Below, one piece after another: positions 19,536 to 27,243 of a DNA stretch of 64,000 nucleotides; position 1 is the stretch's first letter; every line of letters starts with the position of its first letter. Origin of the DNA: Gemmobacter megaterium (GTDB taxonomy: Bacteria > Pseudomonadota > Alphaproteobacteria > Rhodobacterales > Rhodobacteraceae); NCBI RefSeq assembly GCF_900156815.1, contig NZ_FTOT01000004.1, forward strand, positions 1-64,000, in the 5' to 3' direction. The notes below the pieces were generated by a model. It was given only the letters and a program-made list of their open reading frames with translations. It had not been told where the DNA came from and did no database searches. The translations under genes were made by a program, and so were the position numbers.

Positions 19536-20945
19536 CTAGCGGTCTTGGCCGCGCGGATCAAGCGCCGGGTCGGTCAGGCTGTCCAGCCTGGCAACCTGAT
19601 CGGGGGAATGATCCGGCAGATAGGCCAGGATCCGCGGCGCACGCAGCCAAAGCCCCGCCTTGCGGCGCGGTGCCGGGTCCACCGCCTCGAACCCCAGCCG
19701 GTAGAGGCGCCGGGGCGGCACCTCGCGGACCGGACCGAAACGCGCGGTTGCATGGCGGCGGATCCAGGTGCCCAGATCGTCCAGATCTTCGCGCGACAGA
19801 CCGTCGATGGTCCGGGCGACCGGCACCAAGGCCGTGCCAGAGCGCACGGCGAAGGTCAGCCCCGCGATGTCCCGGCCGCCGGACCCCAGTTCGGCATGGA
19901 CCAGCACCGCATCGGTTTCGCGCGGATGCGGCGCCCAGTCATGCCAGGGGCAGTCCGGGCCGGCATCCTGACGACGCAGCCACAGGCCCTCCCGCCGACG
20001 GATCAACTCAAGCGCGGCCCAGTCCGTCGCGGGCACGGCGGGCGCAAGGCCGATCGGCCCGCCGCAACCCTCCGCCAGCAAGGCCCGGCGCTGCGCGAAA
20101 CCAAGGGCCGCCACGGGTTGGCCCCGCCATTCCAGCAGATCCAGCGCCCACAGGACACCGGGCTGCGGCTCTACCGCCTCGATCACGGTGCCGATTGCCA
20201 GATCCTGCAAGACCGATGCAAGGTCGGGCCTGGTCCCGGTCAGCAACCTGCCATCTTCGGCCCAGACCTGCGCCGGGCCGGTCCGGCGCAGCACTTGCAG
20301 GCGCGGCTGGTCCATGCGGGGAAAGGCGGCCCAGTCCGCAACCGGACCAGCGGGCCCCGTGAACGGGCGCAGTGTGGCAAAGGGCCGGGCGATCTGTTCC
20401 GGGGCGACCGCAGCGATCAGCGCGGCAAGCCCCATCTCTGGCCTCCAGGTCTCCAGCTTCAGCACGATTGCCCCCGCAATGCCCCCGCTGATCTCTGCCA
20501 GTGCCTGGCCAATCTGCGGCGCAGGCAGGGTCAGGCGCAGCGTGCCGGTCAACAGGCGGATCGCGGCCAGCCGGACCGTAACCGGCAAGACCTCAAGCCG
20601 CGCGAGGATCTCATCGGGCTCCAGGCCGCGACACTGCCCGAGCAGATCCTGCGGCGCGACCTCCTCGGGGGTCGGGGCGTCGGGCAACAGATGGGCAATC
20701 GTTTCGGCCACGCTGCCGGCAGCGGCCCGGCTTGCCTCGAACAGCCAGTCGGGGATCCCCTCGGCACGACAGGCGGCCTGACGCAGGGCGGCGAGCGTCA
20801 CGGCGGGCCGGGGGCGCTGGCCAGATACCCAGGACAGCACATGCGCCGCCTCGACAGGCGATGCCGACCGCAGATAGGCGCCCAGCGCGGGAACCGCAGG
20901 GGCGCCGGTCGTCAACGCCTCGATCAGGGCGGCAAACGCCCTCAT
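19536..20945 (-). CDS. Degenerate ATP-dependent DNA ligase homologue, catalytic motifs lost
   Basis: Residues 1-90 and the C-terminal OB-like half align by eye with the 'cisplatin damage response' ATP-dependent ligase (LigC-like) linked to PdeM, Lhr and the MBL exonuclease; the ending RFGPVREV...RAPRIL is typical. The catalytic motifs are not: motif I (normally KWDGIR) reads RMDQPR at 210-215, motif III (DGEL) reads IEAV, motif IV (EGxMLK) reads EGLWLR at 319-324, and the WxKWK motif V reads CPWHDW. Length is 469 residues against about 530, with material lost between motifs I and IV. Adenylation at lysine is therefore unlikely. The reading frame is open and codon use is like its neighbours. 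Start at 20945 ([11 protein letters not shown]); an upstream ATG at 21014 is possible. Confidence 0.8.
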
Positions 20946-21033
20946 GGCCTGCGCACGGGGGCACGGGTCGTCCCGGCACGTCGACCGGCCAGACGCGTGA
21001 TCCGATGGGTGCAAGGGGGGACGGCGGCCTGTG

Positions 21034-21993
21034 TCATGCCCGCCCCGCAGCGGATGTCAGCGGCGCCGCATCAAGGCCCTGTTCGCAAAGCCAGCGGGCA
21101 AAGGCGTCTTCATAGCCATGCGTCACCAGCACGCGGCTGGCGCCGGTGGCCCGGATGGCGGCGTTCAGTCCCGGCCAGTCGGCATGATCCGACAATACGA
21201 AACCTTGGCCCGCGCCGCGCCGCGTGCCACGCAGCGCCATCCAGCCCGAAGCCATCGCGCTGCGGGTCCGGGCCGGAAGCCCGGCCTGCGGCGCCGCAAT
21301 CAGCAGGGCGCCCGATGGCAGCGCCGCACCATCCCACACAGATGCCGCCGGCAGGGAGTAGCCGACAGAGGCCAACGCCGTGGTGGCCGCAGCCGCAGCC
21401 GGGTGCAACAGAACTGGCCCTGGCCCGGTTCCGGCCAGCAGATGCAGCAACCGTTGGGCCTTGCCCAGTGAATAGGCGGCAATCGCGGCCCCCTGCCCTG
21501 CGGCCGCAGCGGACTGCCACCAGCCCCGGATCTGATCGGCAACCAGCGCCTGCGGCGACCAGCGGAACACCGGCAGCCCAAAGGTGCATTCTGTGACGAA
21601 CCCATGGCAGGCCACCGGCTCGAACGGTTCGGCAAGGCCGTCCTCCTCGGTCTTGTAGTCGCCAGAGACCACCCAGATCTCGCCCCCCACCTCGATCCGC
21701 ACCTGTGCTGCGCCGGGCAGATGGCCGGAGGGATGGAAACTGACCTCGGCCCCCGCGACGCGCAATCGTTGGCCAAAGGGCAATTCCTGCACGGTGACAC
21801 GGCCCAGCCGCTGACGCAGCATCACCGCCGTGCCGGGCGTCGCCAGATAGGCCCCTGCGCCGGGGCGTGCGTGATCGGCATGGGCATGGGTCACGACCGC
21901 CAGCGCCACCTTGCCGGACGGATCGACATGGAATCCCCCCGCCGGGCAGGCCAGACCTTTGGGATCGACGACAAGAACAGGATCGCGCGGCAT
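21034..21993 (-). CDS. Ligase-associated DNA exonuclease (metallo-beta-lactamase fold)
   Basis: A 319-residue MBL/beta-CASP-type nuclease. The metal site is intact: THAHADHARPG (HxHxDH), HPSGHLPGA, SGDYKTEEDG, and the C-terminal SDHADW and VTHGYED motifs. It matches the exonuclease of the ligase-PdeM-Lhr repair set. It precedes the degenerate ligase on the same strand, 88 bp from its preferred start or 19 bp from the alternative one, so the two are probably co-transcribed. Confidence 0.88.
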   Translation of the reverse strand: MPRDPVLVVDPKGLACPAGGFHVDPSGKVALAVVTHAHADHARPGAGAYLATPGTAVMLRQRLGRVTVQELPFGQRLRVAGAEVSFHPSGHLPGAAQVRIEVGGEIWVVSGDYKTEEDGLAEPFEPVACHGFVTECTFGLPVFRWSPQALVADQIRGWWQSAAAAGQGAAIAAYSLGKAQRLLHLLAGTGPGPVLLHPAAAAATTALASVGYSLPAASVWDGAALPSGALLIAAPQAGLPARTRSAMASGWMALRGTRRGAGQGFVLSDHADWPGLNAAIRATGASRVLVTHGYEDAFARWLCEQGLDAAPLTSAAGRA

Positions 21994-22374
21994 GGGGCAA
22001 ACTTAGGGCAGCGGGCACGAAAAGGGAACATCTCCTGTCGCACAGCGGCGCAAGCCATGGCGGCACAGCGCGACCCCGCGACCCGAGGCAGGGCGCAGTC
22101 GCGCCCCCACAGCCGCGCAGATCGGCACAGACCTCCGCCTGGCCGGGTGCAGGGCAACCCGGCAACCTGCCACTTTTTCACGCGACTGGCCCGCATAGTG
22201 CCCTTGAATGCCGATGGCATGGGCAGGTTCCGCCAGTCACCCCCCGTTCACACCCGGTACTTGCACAAAAAACAGGCAGACCCACCCACCTGACGCAACC
22301 GCCCCGATCAGGGGGCTTGTCCTTTCGCCGCCCGCAGTGATTGACTGGTGTTAACGAGTGCATCAGGGGGCATC
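21994..22374. other. Divergent intergenic region before the ATP-grasp gene
   Basis: About 380 bp between the exonuclease gene (minus) and the ATP-grasp gene (plus). It should carry promoters for both. The last 100 bp are less GC-rich than the rest (TTCACACCCGGTACTTGCAC; TTGACTGGTGTTAACGAG). No gene or clear hairpin is seen. Confidence 0.45.
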
Positions 22375-23787
22375 GTGACAAGTTTTTTTAACGAAATGTT
22401 CCATTCGGGGCGGGTGCGCCCTCCCTATGCGAGACTTCAGGACTGGGTGGCGGCAATGCCCGCAGCCCTGCGCCAGATGAAACAGGCCGAGGCCGAGGAG
22501 TTGTTCCGGCGCATCGGAATCACCTTCGCGGTCTATGGCGAGGGGGGCGACCCGGACCGGCTGATCCCCTTTGACATGTTCCCGCGCGTCTTCACCAATC
22601 AGGAATGGACCCGGCTGGAACGCGGGATCAAGCAAAGGGCACGGGCGCTGAACGCCTTTCTGGCCGATGTCTACAGCCGGGGCGAGATCGTGCGGGCCGG
22701 GCGCATCCCGGCACGGCTGGTCTATTGCAACGAGGCCTATGAAAAGGCGGTGGCCGGGATCCGCCCGCCAAAGGACGTCTACAGCCATATCGTGGGCATT
22801 GATCTGGTGCGCACCGGACCGGATGATTTCTATGTGCTAGAGGACAACTGCCGCACGCCGTCGGGTGTGTCCTACATGCTGGAAAACCGCGAGATCATGA
22901 TGCGGATGTTCCCCGACATCTTCCGGGAAAACCGCATCCAGCCTGTCGATGGCTACCCCGAGGCGCTGCGCCGCACGCTTGCCTCTGTGGCACCGCCGAA
23001 GTGCAATCACGAACCCAATGTGGTGATCCTGACACCGGGTCATTTCAACAGCGCCTACTACGAACACAGCTTTCTGGCCGATCTGATGGGCGTCGAACTG
23101 GTCGAGGGGCAGGATCTGTTCGTAGAGGGCGAATTCGTCTGGATGCGCACCACCGAAGGCCCCCGCAAGGTGGATGTGATCTATCGCCGGATCGACGACA
23201 GCTTTCTGGACCCGCTGTGCTTTCGCCCCGATTCCATGCTGGGCATTCCGGGGCTGATGGATGTGTACAGGTCGGGCGGCGTCAGCATCTGTTCGGCGCC
23301 GGGGGCAGGCGTGGCCGACGACAAGGCGGTCTATACCTATGTGCCCGAAATGGTGCGCTTCTATCTGGGCGAGGAACCGATCCTGCAAAATGTGCCGACC
23401 TGGCAATGCCAGAAATCGGACGAGCTGAAATATGTGCTGGAAAACCTGGGCGAACTGGTGGTCAAGGAGGTGCATGGCTCGGGTGGCTACGGGATGCTGG
23501 TGGGGCCGAAATCGACATCCGAACAGATCGAGGCGTTCCGCCACCGCATCATCGAAGACCCGGACAATTACATTGCGCAACCGACATTGGCGCTGTCGAC
23601 CGTGCCGACCTTTGTCGAAGAGGGCGTGGCACCCCGCCATGTCGATCTGCGCCCCTATTGCCTGGTGGGCGAGCGGATCGAACTGGTGCCGGGCGGGCTG
23701 ACACGGGTTGCGCTGCGCGACGGATCCTTGGTGGTGAACTCGTCGCAGGGTGGCGGGGTCAAGGATACATGGGTGCTGGCGGAATGA
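22375..23787 (+). CDS. Circularly permuted ATP-grasp protein (predicted peptide/amide ligase)
   Basis: A 470-residue protein of the circularly permuted ATP-grasp type 2 family (formerly DUF404/DUF407). Seen motifs include EDNCRTPSGVSYMLENRE, VIYRRIDDSFLDP, LVVKEVHGSGGYGMLVG (nucleotide-binding glycine loop) and HVDLRPYCLVG. The family is predicted to form amide or peptide bonds using ATP; a substrate is not known. The GTG at 22375 is chosen because AGGGGG lies five bases upstream; a GTG at 22348 has no such site. First gene of a cluster with alpha-E, transglutaminase and Anbu genes. Confidence 0.9.
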   Translation: MTSFFNEMFHSGRVRPPYARLQDWVAAMPAALRQMKQAEAEELFRRIGITFAVYGEGGDPDRLIPFDMFPRVFTNQEWTRLERGIKQRARALNAFLADVYSRGEIVRAGRIPARLVYCNEAYEKAVAGIRPPKDVYSHIVGIDLVRTGPDDFYVLEDNCRTPSGVSYMLENREIMMRMFPDIFRENRIQPVDGYPEALRRTLASVAPPKCNHEPNVVILTPGHFNSAYYEHSFLADLMGVELVEGQDLFVEGEFVWMRTTEGPRKVDVIYRRIDDSFLDPLCFRPDSMLGIPGLMDVYRSGGVSICSAPGAGVADDKAVYTYVPEMVRFYLGEEPILQNVPTWQCQKSDELKYVLENLGELVVKEVHGSGGYGMLVGPKSTSEQIEAFRHRIIEDPDNYIAQPTLALSTVPTFVEEGVAPRHVDLRPYCLVGERIELVPGGLTRVALRDGSLVVNSSQGGGVKDTWVLAE

Positions 23788-23935
23788 TGCGGGCATCCGA
23801 TGGACTGGCGCAGACGGCACCAAGGCCCCTGCGCCCCGCGCCGACAGTTTGCCGAACGGATGGGGCGCCGACGCACACCCCCGCCGGATCTGTGCCGTCA
23901 GATGAAAACGCCAGCCGTTGCCGGGAGGAATTGTC

Positions 23936-24889
23936 ATGCTGAGCCGGACCGCCGACAACCTGCACTGGCTGGCGCGCTACATGGAGCGCGCCGAAACCGC
24001 GGCGCGGCTGCTGGAAGTGGGCGCGCGGATCGCCCTGTTGCCCAATGCCGGGCAAGGCTACCGCAACGAATGGGATGCGCTGCTGCACGCCGGGGGCAGT
24101 GCCGACGCCTTTGCCCGCAAATACGGCGAGGCCGTGCAGCGAAACATAGAAAGCCATCTGTTCTTTGACCGCGACAATGCCTCTTCGGTGGCTAGCTGCA
24201 TCACGCGGGCAAGAGAGAACGGGCGGATCGTGCGGACGGCGCTGTCGGTGCAGGTCTGGGACGCGCTGAACACCGCCTTTCAGGAACTGCGTCAGTTGGA
24301 ACGGACCCCGCGCAGCGACCTGTCGCTGTTCACCCTGACGGAATGGACGATGCGCCATGCGGCCATGGTGCGCGGCGCGATCGACGCCACGCTTCTGCGC
24401 AACGACGGGCATGATTTCCTGAACCTCGGGTTCTTTCTGGAACGCGCCGACAACACCGCGCGGCTGCTGGACGTCAAATACTATGTGCTGCTGCCAAGAG
24501 CCGATTTCGTGGGATCGGGGCTGGACAACTATCAATGGACCACGCTGTTGCGGGCCATGTCGTCGCACCGGGCCTTCCATTGGGCCTATGGCGGCGATGT
24601 GACGGCGGCCAAGATCGCGCATTTCCTGATCCTGAACAACCAGTGCCCCCGGTCGCTGATCACCTGTGTCGAGGGGCTGACACTGCATCTTGACCGGCTG
24701 GCAAAGCGCTATCATCGTTCGGGCGCCGCGCAGCAGGCGGCGCGCGGCATATTGGGGGAACTGGCCGAGATGAAGGTCGAGGATATTTTCGAGGAAGGAA
24801 TGCACGAATTCCTGACCCGCTTCATCGGTGAAATCTCGGGGATCGGACGGACCATCCATGACGCCTATCTGAACGGGGATGTGCGATGA
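23936..24889 (+). CDS. Alpha-E domain protein (DUF403)
   Basis: A 317-residue mostly helical protein with the family start MLSRTADNLHWLARYMERAE and the later motif FLERADNTARLLDVKYY. The alpha-E family is almost always encoded with the permuted ATP-grasp and a transglutaminase-like protein; its molecular role is not established. The ATG at 23936 follows GGGAGGAATTGTC. It lies 148 bp after the ATP-grasp gene and overlaps the next gene by four bases. Confidence 0.92.
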   Translation: MLSRTADNLHWLARYMERAETAARLLEVGARIALLPNAGQGYRNEWDALLHAGGSADAFARKYGEAVQRNIESHLFFDRDNASSVASCITRARENGRIVRTALSVQVWDALNTAFQELRQLERTPRSDLSLFTLTEWTMRHAAMVRGAIDATLLRNDGHDFLNLGFFLERADNTARLLDVKYYVLLPRADFVGSGLDNYQWTTLLRAMSSHRAFHWAYGGDVTAAKIAHFLILNNQCPRSLITCVEGLTLHLDRLAKRYHRSGAAQQAARGILGELAEMKVEDIFEEGMHEFLTRFIGEISGIGRTIHDAYLNGDVR

Positions 24890-25701
24890 GGCTGGCCGTC
24901 GAACATGTGACGCTCTACCGCTATGACCAGCCGGTGCGCGCCGCGGTGCAAAGCCATAGGCTGCATCCTTCCAGCTTTGACGGCCAGCGGGTAGAGGATT
25001 GGCAGGTCACCGTATCTGGCGGGGTAAAGGGCGGCGGGTTCCGGGATGGCGCCGGCGACTGGATCCAGGGTTGGACGGTGGCGGGGCCCGTCTCTGAAAT
25101 CACCGTGACCGTGACGGGCCTGGTCGAGACTCGCGACCTTACGGGCGTGCTGCGCGGACACCGCGAGCAGGTATCGCCCATGGCCTATCTGCGCGAAACC
25201 GGGCCAACCCGCGCCGATGCCGCGCTGGCCGCGCTGGCCCGGTCGGTCGAGGCGGACAGCTCTCTGGCGCTGGCTCATGGGCTGGCTGCCATCGTGGCGG
25301 AATCCATCGCCTATGCCCCCGGCAAAACCCATGCCCACACCACCGCCGCCGAGGCGCTGGCCATGGGCGAAGGCGTCTGCCAGGATCATGCCCATGCCCT
25401 GATCGCCTGTGCCCGCGACCGCGAGATGCCGGGGCGGTATGTCTCGGGCTATCTGTTGGCGGATGCCGAGGGCAGACCACACGAGGCCGCCCACGCCTGG
25501 GCAGAACTGTGGGTGGACGGGCTGGGATGGGTCGGGTTCGATCCCGCGAACCGCTGTTGCCCCGATGAGCGGTATATCCGGCTTGGTTCCGGTTTCGACG
25601 CCCGTGACGCCGCGCCGATCCGCGGCATCGCCCGCAGCCCCGGCGAAGAACAGATGGATGTGCGGGTCGCGGTCCAATCGGTGCAGAACGCACAGCAATA
25701 G
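24886..25701 (+). CDS. Transglutaminase-like cysteine protease domain protein
   Basis: A 271-residue protein: an N-terminal beta-rich transglutaminase N domain (residues 1-90) and a transglutaminase/protease core with the triad Cys165 (GEGVCQDHAH), His203 (AAHAWAELWV) and Asp219 (VGFDPANR). Bacterial members are generally predicted peptidases or amidases rather than cross-linkers. It overlaps the alpha-E gene by ATGA, suggesting translational coupling. No signal peptide, so cytoplasmic. Confidence 0.92.
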   Translation: MRLAVEHVTLYRYDQPVRAAVQSHRLHPSSFDGQRVEDWQVTVSGGVKGGGFRDGAGDWIQGWTVAGPVSEITVTVTGLVETRDLTGVLRGHREQVSPMAYLRETGPTRADAALAALARSVEADSSLALAHGLAAIVAESIAYAPGKTHAHTTAAEALAMGEGVCQDHAHALIACARDREMPGRYVSGYLLADAEGRPHEAAHAWAELWVDGLGWVGFDPANRCCPDERYIRLGSGFDARDAAPIRGIARSPGEEQMDVRVAVQSVQNAQQ

Positions 25702-25827
25702 CGCCTTGGCACGGCAGCCACAGCCTGGCTATTTCTCTGGCAAGGCGCGGTGTGTGTGCCCTGCCCCGTTTCCGCGGTGCAGAATTCCCGCTAGCGTCGG
25801 TCTCGCAACCGAATCGGATATGTGACG

Positions 25828-26553
25828 ATGACCTATTGCGTGGGCCTGCTGCTGAACGAAGGAATGGTGCTGCTGTCGGACACCCGCACCAATGCCGGGC
25901 TGGACAATATCGCCACCTATCGCAAGATGTTCACCTTCGAGGTGCCGGGCGAACGCGTCATCGTGATCATGACGGCGGGCAGCCTGTCGGTCACGCAGAC
26001 GACCATTGCCCGGCTGCGCGACATGAACGATTCGCCCGATGCCGATCCCACGACCTGCATTCTGCGGGCGCCCACCATGCTGGCCGTGGCCGAGATCGTC
26101 GGCTCGACCCTTGCCGCCGTGCGTGGCGAAATTCAGGAAAAGCTGTCGGCCATGGGCCAGGGCGCCAGCGCCAGCATGATCGTGGCGGGTCAGCGCAAGG
26201 GCGGCGGGATGCGGATGTTCCTGATCTATCCCGAAGGCAATTTCATCGAGGCGACCGAGGACACACCCTTTCTTCAGATTGGCGAGCACAAATATGGCAA
26301 GCCGATCCTGGACCGTGTGGTCAAACCATCGACCAGCCTGCTTGATGCACAAAAGGCCGTGCTGCTGAGCATGGATTCGACCCTGCGGTCGAACCTGTCG
26401 GTCGGAATGCCGCTGGATCTTGCGGTGATCGACAAGGACGCACTGAAGGTGACAGCGGCCCGGCGGATCGAGGCGGGCGACCCCGATTTCCGCGCCATGT
26501 CCGAAGCCTGGTCCACCGCCCTGCGCGACGGATTCCAGAAGATCGAGCTGTGA
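25828..26553 (+). CDS. Anbu, proteasome-related N-terminal threonine peptidase
   Basis: About 241 residues starting MTYCVGLLLNEGMVLLSDTR. Removal of Met would expose Thr1; Asp17 (SDTRTNAG) and Lys32 (TYRKM) fill the usual proteasome/HslV active-site positions. Anbu ('ancestral beta subunit') proteins are proteasome-like but assemble differently from the closed 20S ring, and their substrates are unknown. The ATG at 25828 is preferred to a GTG at 25822 because it puts Thr at position 2. It follows the transglutaminase gene by 126 bp, completing the conserved four-gene set. Confidence 0.92.
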   Translation: MTYCVGLLLNEGMVLLSDTRTNAGLDNIATYRKMFTFEVPGERVIVIMTAGSLSVTQTTIARLRDMNDSPDADPTTCILRAPTMLAVAEIVGSTLAAVRGEIQEKLSAMGQGASASMIVAGQRKGGGMRMFLIYPEGNFIEATEDTPFLQIGEHKYGKPILDRVVKPSTSLLDAQKAVLLSMDSTLRSNLSVGMPLDLAVIDKDALKVTAARRIEAGDPDFRAMSEAWSTALRDGFQKIEL

Positions 26554-26595: not shown

Positions 26596-27243
26596 ATGCG
26601 CGCCCTTGCCTTTGCCCTGTCCCTCATGCTGCCCGGTGCGGGCCACGCCTGCAAGGCCGCGCTTGTGCTGGCCATGGATGTCTCGGGCTCGGTCGATGCC
26701 GGCGAATGGCGCTTGCAGGCCGATGGGCTGGCGGCGGCACTCGCCGACCGTCAGATCCGCGAGGTGCTGGTGCAGGAACAGGTCGCGCTTGCCGTGGTGC
26801 AATGGTCTGCGCTGGGGCAACAGGCCCTGGTGATCCCCTGGCAACGGATGCTCGACCAGCGCGCCGTTGACCGCATGGCGGAACGGGTGCGCACCATGCC
26901 GCGCGCCTTTCCAGGCTCGGACACGGCGGTGGGCGAGGCGCTGGAGTTTTCTCTGGCGCAGTTTTCGGCCGTTTCGGATTGCCGGCGCAAGATCATCGAC
27001 ATGTCCGGCGACGGGGACGAAAACGTCGGCTTCACAACCCCGCGCGCAAGACGCGCAGCGATCGAGGCGGGGGTAGAGGTCAACGGGCTGGCAATCGAGT
27101 CGATGGGCCTGTCGATCACCAACTATTATCGGCGCTGGGTGATCACGCCGCGCGGATTCGTGGAGACGGCACAGGGCCATCTGGACTATGCCCGCGCGAT
27201 ACGCGCCAAGATGCTGCGCGAACTGACCGCCCCGACCAGTTGA
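26596..27243 (+). CDS. DUF1194 protein, von Willebrand A-like, exported
   Basis: A 215-residue protein with a signal peptide (MRALAFALSLMLPGAGHA) and a von Willebrand A-like fold carrying the MIDAS sequence DVSGSVD (Asp28, Ser30, Ser32), followed by PGSDTAVGEAL and IIDMSGDGDENVG. Members of DUF1194 are frequent in Rhodobacterales and have no assigned role. It lies 42 bp after the Anbu gene and may be co-transcribed, but its export separates it from cytoplasmic Anbu. Confidence 0.88.
   Translation: MRALAFALSLMLPGAGHACKAALVLAMDVSGSVDAGEWRLQADGLAAALADRQIREVLVQEQVALAVVQWSALGQQALVIPWQRMLDQRAVDRMAERVRTMPRAFPGSDTAVGEALEFSLAQFSAVSDCRRKIIDMSGDGDENVGFTTPRARRAAIEAGVEVNGLAIESMGLSITNYYRRWVITPRGFVETAQGHLDYARAIRAKMLRELTAPTS

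Follow-up and report, generated by a model that had tools for sequence, protein, structure and literature searches.

The locus described here occupies positions 22375-26553 of a 64,000-nucleotide stretch of Gemmobacter megaterium DNA (contig NZ_FTOT01000004.1, positions 1 to 64,000; referred to below as the window), and represents the Anbu operon in a Gemmobacter-like bacterium of the family Rhodobacteraceae. It consists of four intact genes on the forward strand, encoding an ATP-grasp protein, an alpha-E protein, a transglutaminase-like (TG) protein and the proteasome relative Anbu, and it is preceded by a conserved, putative operator of the type recognized by the nitrogen regulator NtrC; we regard its regulation as the most informative clue to the role of the operon. 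Among named organisms, Gemmobacter nectariphilus gave the nearest match returned with the ATP-grasp protein (94% identity; very near records were possibly omitted). The parts of the operon are as follows.

22375..23787, forward strand: circularly permuted ATP-grasp protein, a predicted amide ligase, with a GTG start (PF14403, 2.2e-166; PF04174, 1.6e-149; solved homologue 3n6x)
23936..24889, forward strand: alpha-E protein, the constant partner of ATP-grasp (PF04168, 2.7e-86; in the same 119 of 199 genomes as ATP-grasp; predicted all-helical)
24886..25701, forward strand: TG protein, papain-fold, with Cys165-His203-Asp219 (PF01841, 1.4e-18; PF08379, 1.9e-17; triad in 17 of 17)
25702..25827, no strand assigned: 126-bp spacer ahead of Anbu, with one weak terminator-like hairpin at 25716-25730
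25828..26553 from an ATG, forward strand: Anbu, a proteasome-beta-like Ntn hydrolase (PF00227, weak, 7.9e-07; Anbu profile; Thr1, Asp17 and Lys32)

A preliminary description of this DNA had reported four same-strand genes with an ATGA overlap between the alpha-E and TG genes; coordinates, strand and frames are correct, and the overlap is present at 24886-24889. This is the only tight coupling in the window copy, with gaps of 148 bp between ATP-grasp and alpha-E and of 126 bp between TG and Anbu; the first of these is unusual, being 3-7 bp in 66 of 80 close relatives. All four genes are present in 77 of the 80, with order and strand kept in every one of the 77. The alpha-E/TG overlap is 4 nt in 35 relatives and 1 nt in 34, as judged from BLAST alignment ends, and because it recurs with order and strand kept we do not attribute it to chance. 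The three relatives without the full set are L106 and L109, which stop inside alpha-E, and L099, where an Anbu match is absent from a contig that ends 520 bp past TG.

The catalytic residues reported as intact in the window proteins are invariant in all 17 aligned proteins of each family, both Cys165, His203 and Asp219 of TG and Thr1, Asp17 and Lys32 of Anbu (T2, D18 and K33 counting the Met). Similarly, the ATP-grasp motifs EDN-x-R (156-160) and SGGYG (369-373) are invariant in 19 of 19 proteins, and E17-R18 and E169-R170 of alpha-E in 20 of 20. An Anbu profile built from 17 sequences, including that of the window, recovered five Anbu sequences of solved structure, none more weakly than 3.4e-87, and the sole solved match of the ATP-grasp profile is 3n6x (3.8e-238), named a putative glutathionylspermidine synthase. 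The link to that enzyme derives from the name of 3n6x; the Pfam GSP_synth family is not among the ATP-grasp matches up to E 10, a range in which filters drop most matches above about 0.1, and we retain the link only as an analogy. The earlier descriptions of ATP-grasp as a predicted amide ligase and of Anbu as a proteasome relative are correct, and other Anbu proteins are published as forming open split-ring (lock-washer) assemblies (PMC5666114, PMC6376114, PMC8665760). The alpha-E model is confident and all-helical (pLDDT 88.8); it has no significant match in the PDB (best E 0.41, with TM-scores of about 0.3 or less among the best 50 matches), and the comparison gave no lead to function.

Distribution and inheritance of the gene set

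The distribution of the four genes was surveyed in 199 genomes of the phylum, with 95% completeness requested, and several patterns emerge. First, ATP-grasp and alpha-E are each present in 119 genomes, and the two sets are identical; all 119 contain at least one pair within 1 kb of each other (alpha-E matches in fused paralogues were left out, and positions were taken from among the matches listed). Secondly, TG (E 1e-25) is found in 113 genomes, 112 of them within the 119 and one (G127) outside. Thirdly, Anbu (E 1e-20) is found in 82 genomes, 81 with the ATP-grasp/alpha-E pair and one (G094) without it, while 38 of the 119 pair genomes have no Anbu match. A family survey of 120 Rhodobacteraceae genera, one genome each, covered ATP-grasp and Anbu, and found ATP-grasp in 91 and Anbu in 86; all 86 lie inside the 91, and none of the 29 genera without ATP-grasp has Anbu. 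The identical sets and the adjacency therefore make ATP-grasp and alpha-E an inseparable core, which TG usually accompanies, and on which Anbu is dependent yet optional. The recurrence of the gene set in proteobacteria, as given in the preliminary description, is confirmed by these counts. Independent distribution in related genomes had been set beforehand as the observation that would speak against the quartet, and the identical distribution of ATP-grasp and alpha-E leaves it standing. The preliminary description treats all four genes as a single unit, whereas Anbu is separable.

The genome carries a second, paralogous locus (G000:C19:136000-148000, L003) that encodes a 1109-amino-acid (aa) protein in which a transglutaminase domain is joined to a putative amidoligase (DUF2126, PF09899), an 802-aa ATP-grasp/alpha-E fusion, and a TG-type gene. 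The window copy is the sole Anbu match in the genome, the second locus having none. This natural fusion is a further sign that ATP-grasp and alpha-E are partners.

In trees of the four genes (31 taxa: the window and 30 loci drawn from the 100 fetched) distances correlate with r 0.94-0.97. The window type is monophyletic with L121, from another family, and L122, from another class, in all four midpoint-rooted trees with support of 0.95-1.0, and in all four it is separate from the other operon type found in the family (L114-L120), to which its ATP-grasp protein is 59-60% identical. Congruent trees with foreign relatives therefore suggest that the operon has moved or been duplicated as a block. 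An alternative is that the four genes are neighbours with unrelated functions. Anbu does lie away from alpha-E in part of the survey, being within 5 kb in 67 of the 82 genomes, and in the other 15 more than 5 kb away, on another contig, or without any alpha-E. Against independence stand the occurrence of ATP-grasp and alpha-E in exactly the same genomes, adjacent at least once in every carrier, the order kept in all complete close relatives and the congruent trees; it is a reading which is already disfavoured and which we consider very improbable.

Control of the operon

Two features were identified ahead of the ATP-grasp gene.

22262..22278, forward strand: putative NtrC-type operator, a 17-bp dyad TGC-N11-GCA, conserved in relatives and similar to an NtrC site of Paracoccus denitrificans
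22317..22344, forward strand: possible sigma-70-type promoter block (TTGTCC, 16 nt, GATTGA), recognized by eye and of low confidence

The dyad lies 113 bp 5' of the ATP-grasp start codon and was found via the enrichment of k-mers upstream of the operon across relatives. Its consensus, drawn from the same sites that it is scored on, is matched at at least 11 of 15 positions in 54 of 81 upstream regions compared with 44 of 1620 shuffles (two-letter block shuffles throughout, except for single-letter shuffles in one sigma-54 conservation check), and at at least 12 of 15 in six of the seven loci of the family's other operon type (L114, L116-L120). An independent standard is the predicted NtrC site of Paracoccus denitrificans, (T/C)GC(C/A)NNNNTTNNT(G/A)GCA, mutation of which in the nasT promoter abolished induction (PMC5424462). 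The window dyad, TGCACAAAAAACAGGCA, departs from this motif by two mismatches on the reverse strand and three on the forward strand. Among the 81 upstream regions of the window clade the published motif occurs with at most one mismatch in 22 (2.5 expected) and with at most two in 66 (24.5 expected), and 48 of 66 best sites are at -110 to -147. At up to two mismatches it is present in 71 of 88 upstream regions versus 27 of 83 regions of 250 bp downstream of Anbu (p 1.3e-10), and at up to one in 23 of 88 versus 4 of 83; the motif reversed without complementing is matched in 20 of 88 upstream regions at two mismatches, and in none better. The window site alone is not significant, and the case therefore rests on conservation and position, from which we conclude that Rhodobacteraceae Anbu operons carry a conserved, putative NtrC-type operator upstream.

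Related dyads are also found elsewhere in the genome, before a P-II (glnB-type) gene (TGCACAAAATACCGGCA), which we take to be glnB, and before glnK-amtB. A dyad pattern has 22 matches genome-wide compared with five for the reversed pattern, with glnK-amtB at two mismatches; the quartet and P-II sites served to construct the pattern, so that its two zero-mismatch matches are built in, and the informative results are the contrast of 22 with five and the glnK-amtB match.

Several observations weigh against this assignment. The two mismatches of the window dyad are no better than those of another window site at -29, and 17 of the 88 upstream regions have three mismatches; moreover the loci are mutually related, so that p-values such as that above are too small. 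The excess in 18 loci outside the window clade is small (10 at up to two mismatches, about 5.6 expected; L124 and L129 of L114-L133 gave no upstream region, the ATP-grasp match not starting near the gene start), and L121 and L122, which are closest to the window type among loci from outside its family, have weak sites. A site ahead of the second locus is not supported, the best having two mismatches and being common by chance, and the dyads before the P-II gene and glnK-amtB themselves differ from the published motif by two to three mismatches. Four further matches to the dyad pattern whose surroundings were inspected have neighbours similar to uvrC, to a purL-like gene, to a secretin and to a cation ATPase, none of which we know as NtrC targets.

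It could be, then, that some other regulator (e.g. NtrX or a local repressor) binds the palindrome and that the operon lies outside the nitrogen regulon of the family. NtrX is a paralogue, the protein binding the dyad is a prediction only, the window site fits the published motif imperfectly, and many bacterial operators are dyads of similar size. However, the motif used for scoring is a published NtrC site of demonstrated importance for induction (PMC5424462), related dyads precede the genome's own P-II genes, and the same genes elsewhere have sigma-54 promoters or depend on NtrC; we therefore judge another regulator to be improbable and retain NtrC as the predicted one.

The genome's own NtrC is best matched by TIGR01818 (ntrC; 400 bits, under the cut-off of 559), the adjoining kinase is best matched by NR(II), and this NtrC is without the GAFTGA loop. 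Rhodobacterales NtrC proteins are reported to be without GAFTGA, and that of R. capsulatus to work with sigma-70 (PMC10274813, citing earlier work), so that the lack of the loop points to sigma-70 use here. The possible sigma-70 block is based on k-mers that recur upstream in relatives, e.g. CTGATTA/GTTAATCA; a consensus scan of the region found no sigma-70 promoter. A candidate sigma-54 promoter at 22187, convincing by eye with two mismatches in 11 positions, was rejected, as 43 such sites occur in the window compared with 38.7 expected and it is unconserved in the family.

Outside the Rhodobacteraceae the promoter type is different. Upstream of ATP-grasp, at -54 to -318, sigma-54 promoters with at most two mismatches in 12 positions are present in 16 of the 20 genomes sampled from other classes, where 0.7 are expected, and in 10 of the 20 sampled from other families of the same class, where 0.75 are expected; counted by genus, the figures are 10 of 14 and 7 of 10, respectively. 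Among Rhodobacteraceae loci the frequency is that of chance (3 of 88 at up to two mismatches, 2.7 expected). The genomes sampled (20 of 62 from other classes and 20 of 49 from other families) were for the most part the highest entries in the ATP-grasp match list and so are not a random sample, their class and family labels are kinship labels without organism names, and the upstream regions were 400 bp outside the family and 300 bp in the Rhodobacteraceae set. We note that three loci from one family of the same class (f10; L187, L188 and L189) have no sigma-54 promoter (four mismatches each), and have a palindrome resembling the Rhodobacteraceae dyad, e.g. TGCCTAAATTTAAGGCA, upstream of the ATP-grasp gene.

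Published expression data also link these genes to nitrogen. In a Burkholderia cenocepacia ntrC mutant, ATP-grasp, alpha-E, TG and a large TG fall by log2 8.2, 9.4, 9.4 and 6.0, respectively (PMC5491218), and in three Pseudomonas putida strains under nitrogen limitation PP_2686-2688 rise 11- to 37-fold and PP_2685 (Anbu) 1.1- to 4.8-fold (PMC7801951). PP_2685 was induced 11.1-fold in another P. putida nitrogen study (PMC3325844) and by log2 4.44 on nitrate versus ammonium (PMC8050072). In the latter study nitrogen limitation elicited a 3.7-fold response from the PP_2688 (ATP-grasp) promoter region, and the region ahead of PP_2685 drove constitutive expression. An RpoN-type site is tabulated ahead of a CP_ATPgrasp_1 gene in Bradyrhizobium (PMC13207237), and in marine metagenomes these domains are associated with urea metabolism domains (PMC3597751). 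Two reports point the other way: PMC5666114 cites constant expression of the proteins of the operon across a range of conditions, and a P. putida rpoN mutant apparently still showed induction, on the column order as we deduce it (PMC7801951). Overall, nitrogen control seems to have been kept while the promoter type changed, and Anbu may have its own promoter within 25702-25827. The hairpin in this spacer is weak and one of eight terminator-like sites in the region (2.8 expected), and a regulatory structure there is unsupported, the RNA fold being not special (z -0.78).

Interposed and neighbouring genes

A conserved open reading frame (ORF) of 170-254 aa is situated between TG and Anbu, on the same strand, in 17 of 93 fetched four-gene loci: L060 (11294-11959), L042, L046, L051, L058, L059, L062, L063, L065, L067, L076, L078, L081, L088, L092, L094 and L110, with Pseudotabrizicola and Cypionkella among the named hosts. 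Most copies end in a hydrophobic stretch, as seen by eye, and the L060 model has a C-terminal helix; the ORF has no Pfam match over cut-off in the two members scanned, no significant PDB fold match, and no match among five genomes of the window's genus. Two irregular copies of core genes were also seen. A second ATP-grasp copy at G210:C1:1490557-1491773 looks broken, with an in-frame stop and a split match, the intact copy being elsewhere in that genome, and the alpha-E match at L107:5115-6061, on a metagenome-derived contig, is in two frames, from either a sequencing error or a real frameshift.

A DUF1194 (VWA-type) gene is located directly 3' of Anbu on the same strand (26596-27243), and was not accepted as an operon member, being matched in only one of 100 loci (L035). 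To the left of the operon, on the minus strand at 19536-21993, is a ligase-associated DNA damage response exonuclease (TIGR04122, 357 bits, cut-off 325) beside a protein resembling ATP-dependent DNA ligases, whose score is well under the cut-off of its family (TIGR04120, 179 of 400 bits) and which, from this low score, appears to be a divergent or degenerate ligase. Matches to these genes adjoin the operon in some of the 100 loci but not in all, and they too were excluded from it.

Proposed role and known systems

We propose that the operon encodes a nitrogen-starvation module for amide ligation and amide hydrolysis, switched by NtrC and with ATP-grasp and alpha-E at its core, which we consider rather probable as a whole, its chemistry and substrate being conjectural. 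Phosphorylated NtrC, in the form without a GAFTGA loop, would bind the dyad at 22262-22278 when nitrogen is short and would activate a sigma-70 promoter of the operon. ATP-grasp with its alpha-E partner would then use ATP to activate a carboxylate and join it to an amine, giving an amide-linked conjugate that could be a small peptide, an amine conjugate or a protein tag. The TG cysteine enzyme, plus Anbu where present, would open such bonds so that nitrogen or carrier is reused, Anbu being an optional trimming enzyme that is probably expressed partly on its own. The families, the intact residues, the co-inheritance and the conservation of the operator are what the analysis shows; the bond, its substrates, the hydrolytic direction of TG and Anbu and the role of alpha-E are what we infer here.

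Some of what is known tells against this scheme. Regulation and chemistry of the operon in this organism are predictions from sequence, and the hydrolytic direction of TG and Anbu is assigned by reasoning alone. Adding Glu, Gln or Anbu did not increase the phosphate release from ATP by the ATP-grasp protein of Yersinia bercovieri, and the literature examined, as far as its available portions go, reports such release only, and no amide ligation on an acceptor. Anbu proteins showed no amidase activity in vitro on the standard proteasome substrates tested, and no complex or specific interaction with the other three proteins was detected, in the available portion of PMC6376114.

Two rival explanations are to be weighed against this scheme. 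In one, the system serves protein tagging and turnover, with ATP-grasp and alpha-E attaching a peptide tag and Anbu removing the tag or degrading the tagged protein. Nitrogen starvation increases protein turnover, a ligase, an Ntn hydrolase and a papain-like enzyme are found together, and 81 of the 82 genomes with Anbu also have the ligase pair. The 38 pair genomes without Anbu argue otherwise, as do the biochemical results for Anbu just described and, by inspection, the window operon with no evident tag gene; we regard tagging as unlikely. The two published versions of this idea are credited to Iyer 2009 and to Valas and Bourne 2008 by PMC6376114.

In the second rival explanation, the pair synthesizes a small molecule, a peptide-like or amine conjugate that serves as an osmolyte or for storage or scavenging, and the product is then modified by the hydrolases. 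The model is glutathionylspermidine synthetase/amidase, in which an ATP-grasp ligase and a papain-like amidase make and break one amide; the likeness is one of logic only, as the window has separate genes and its ATP-grasp protein has, within the search range given above, no GSP_synth family match, a point that counts against this explanation. The name of 3n6x favours it, as do the release of phosphate by the Yersinia bercovieri ATP-grasp protein without need of a protein partner and the context of the B. cenocepacia NtrC regulon, which includes urea and polyamine transport (PMC5491218). The operon is without a transporter or a further biosynthetic gene, and we see small-molecule synthesis as quite possible, if still on the doubtful side.

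The proposed module may extend well beyond this family, and we speculate, tentatively, that ATP-grasp and alpha-E form the core of a Pseudomonadota-wide cycle of amide conjugation in nitrogen starvation. Carriers and amines would be joined with ATP and reopened by the cysteine enzyme with or without Anbu; nitrogen control would be kept while the promoter varies, sigma-54 in other groups and sigma-70 with NtrC dyads in the Rhodobacteraceae; and alpha-E, whose model has no significant solved-fold match, would be a specificity or transfer subunit. A nitrogen-starvation-type switch ahead of the operon suggests where its purpose should be sought. If nitrogen control is phylum-wide, nitrogen-starved cells are the right setting and ATP-grasp/alpha-E, before Anbu, the first target, and the question of function becomes directly testable in ordinary laboratory strains. 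This has some wider interest, as one account positions Anbu early in the evolution of the proteasome (PMC5666114) and its function was still called unknown in 2021 (PMC8665760).

The preliminary description had singled out the quartet as the window's best candidate for an undescribed system, which is too strong, since the literature already contains the operon, the order of its genes and the idea of a ligase working with hydrolases (PMC5666114, PMC6376114, both citing Iyer 2009); its statement that the substrates are not established agrees with the available portions of these accounts. With the published Anbu operon the window shares the four families, the gene order and the catalytic residues (PMC5666114, PMC6376114).

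Within the genome, the second locus has the same domains, but with the ligase pair fused, a putative amidoligase (PF09899) added, and neither Anbu nor a convincing NtrC site. The P. putida PP_2685-2688 and B. cenocepacia I35_5080-83 clusters likewise have ATP-grasp, alpha-E and TG genes under nitrogen control, PP_2687 being presumably the alpha-E from its place. Both clusters are linked to sigma-54 in the corresponding papers, whereas the window family is not; for B. cenocepacia a large transglutaminase-like protein is listed, and Anbu or a proteasome is unmentioned in the available portion of PMC5491218. The gene set is therefore known, as is nitrogen/NtrC control for Pseudomonas and Burkholderia. 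Among the papers listed in our searches, which do not include Iyer 2009 and Hervas 2009, none was seen to describe an NtrC site ahead of the operon in the Rhodobacteraceae or the contrast in promoter type across the phylum; regulation is what is added here, the preliminary description having had nothing on it. Compared with the published Anbu operon, the window copy is a distinct sequence type, whose relatives have a putative NtrC-type dyad and no conserved sigma-54 promoter.

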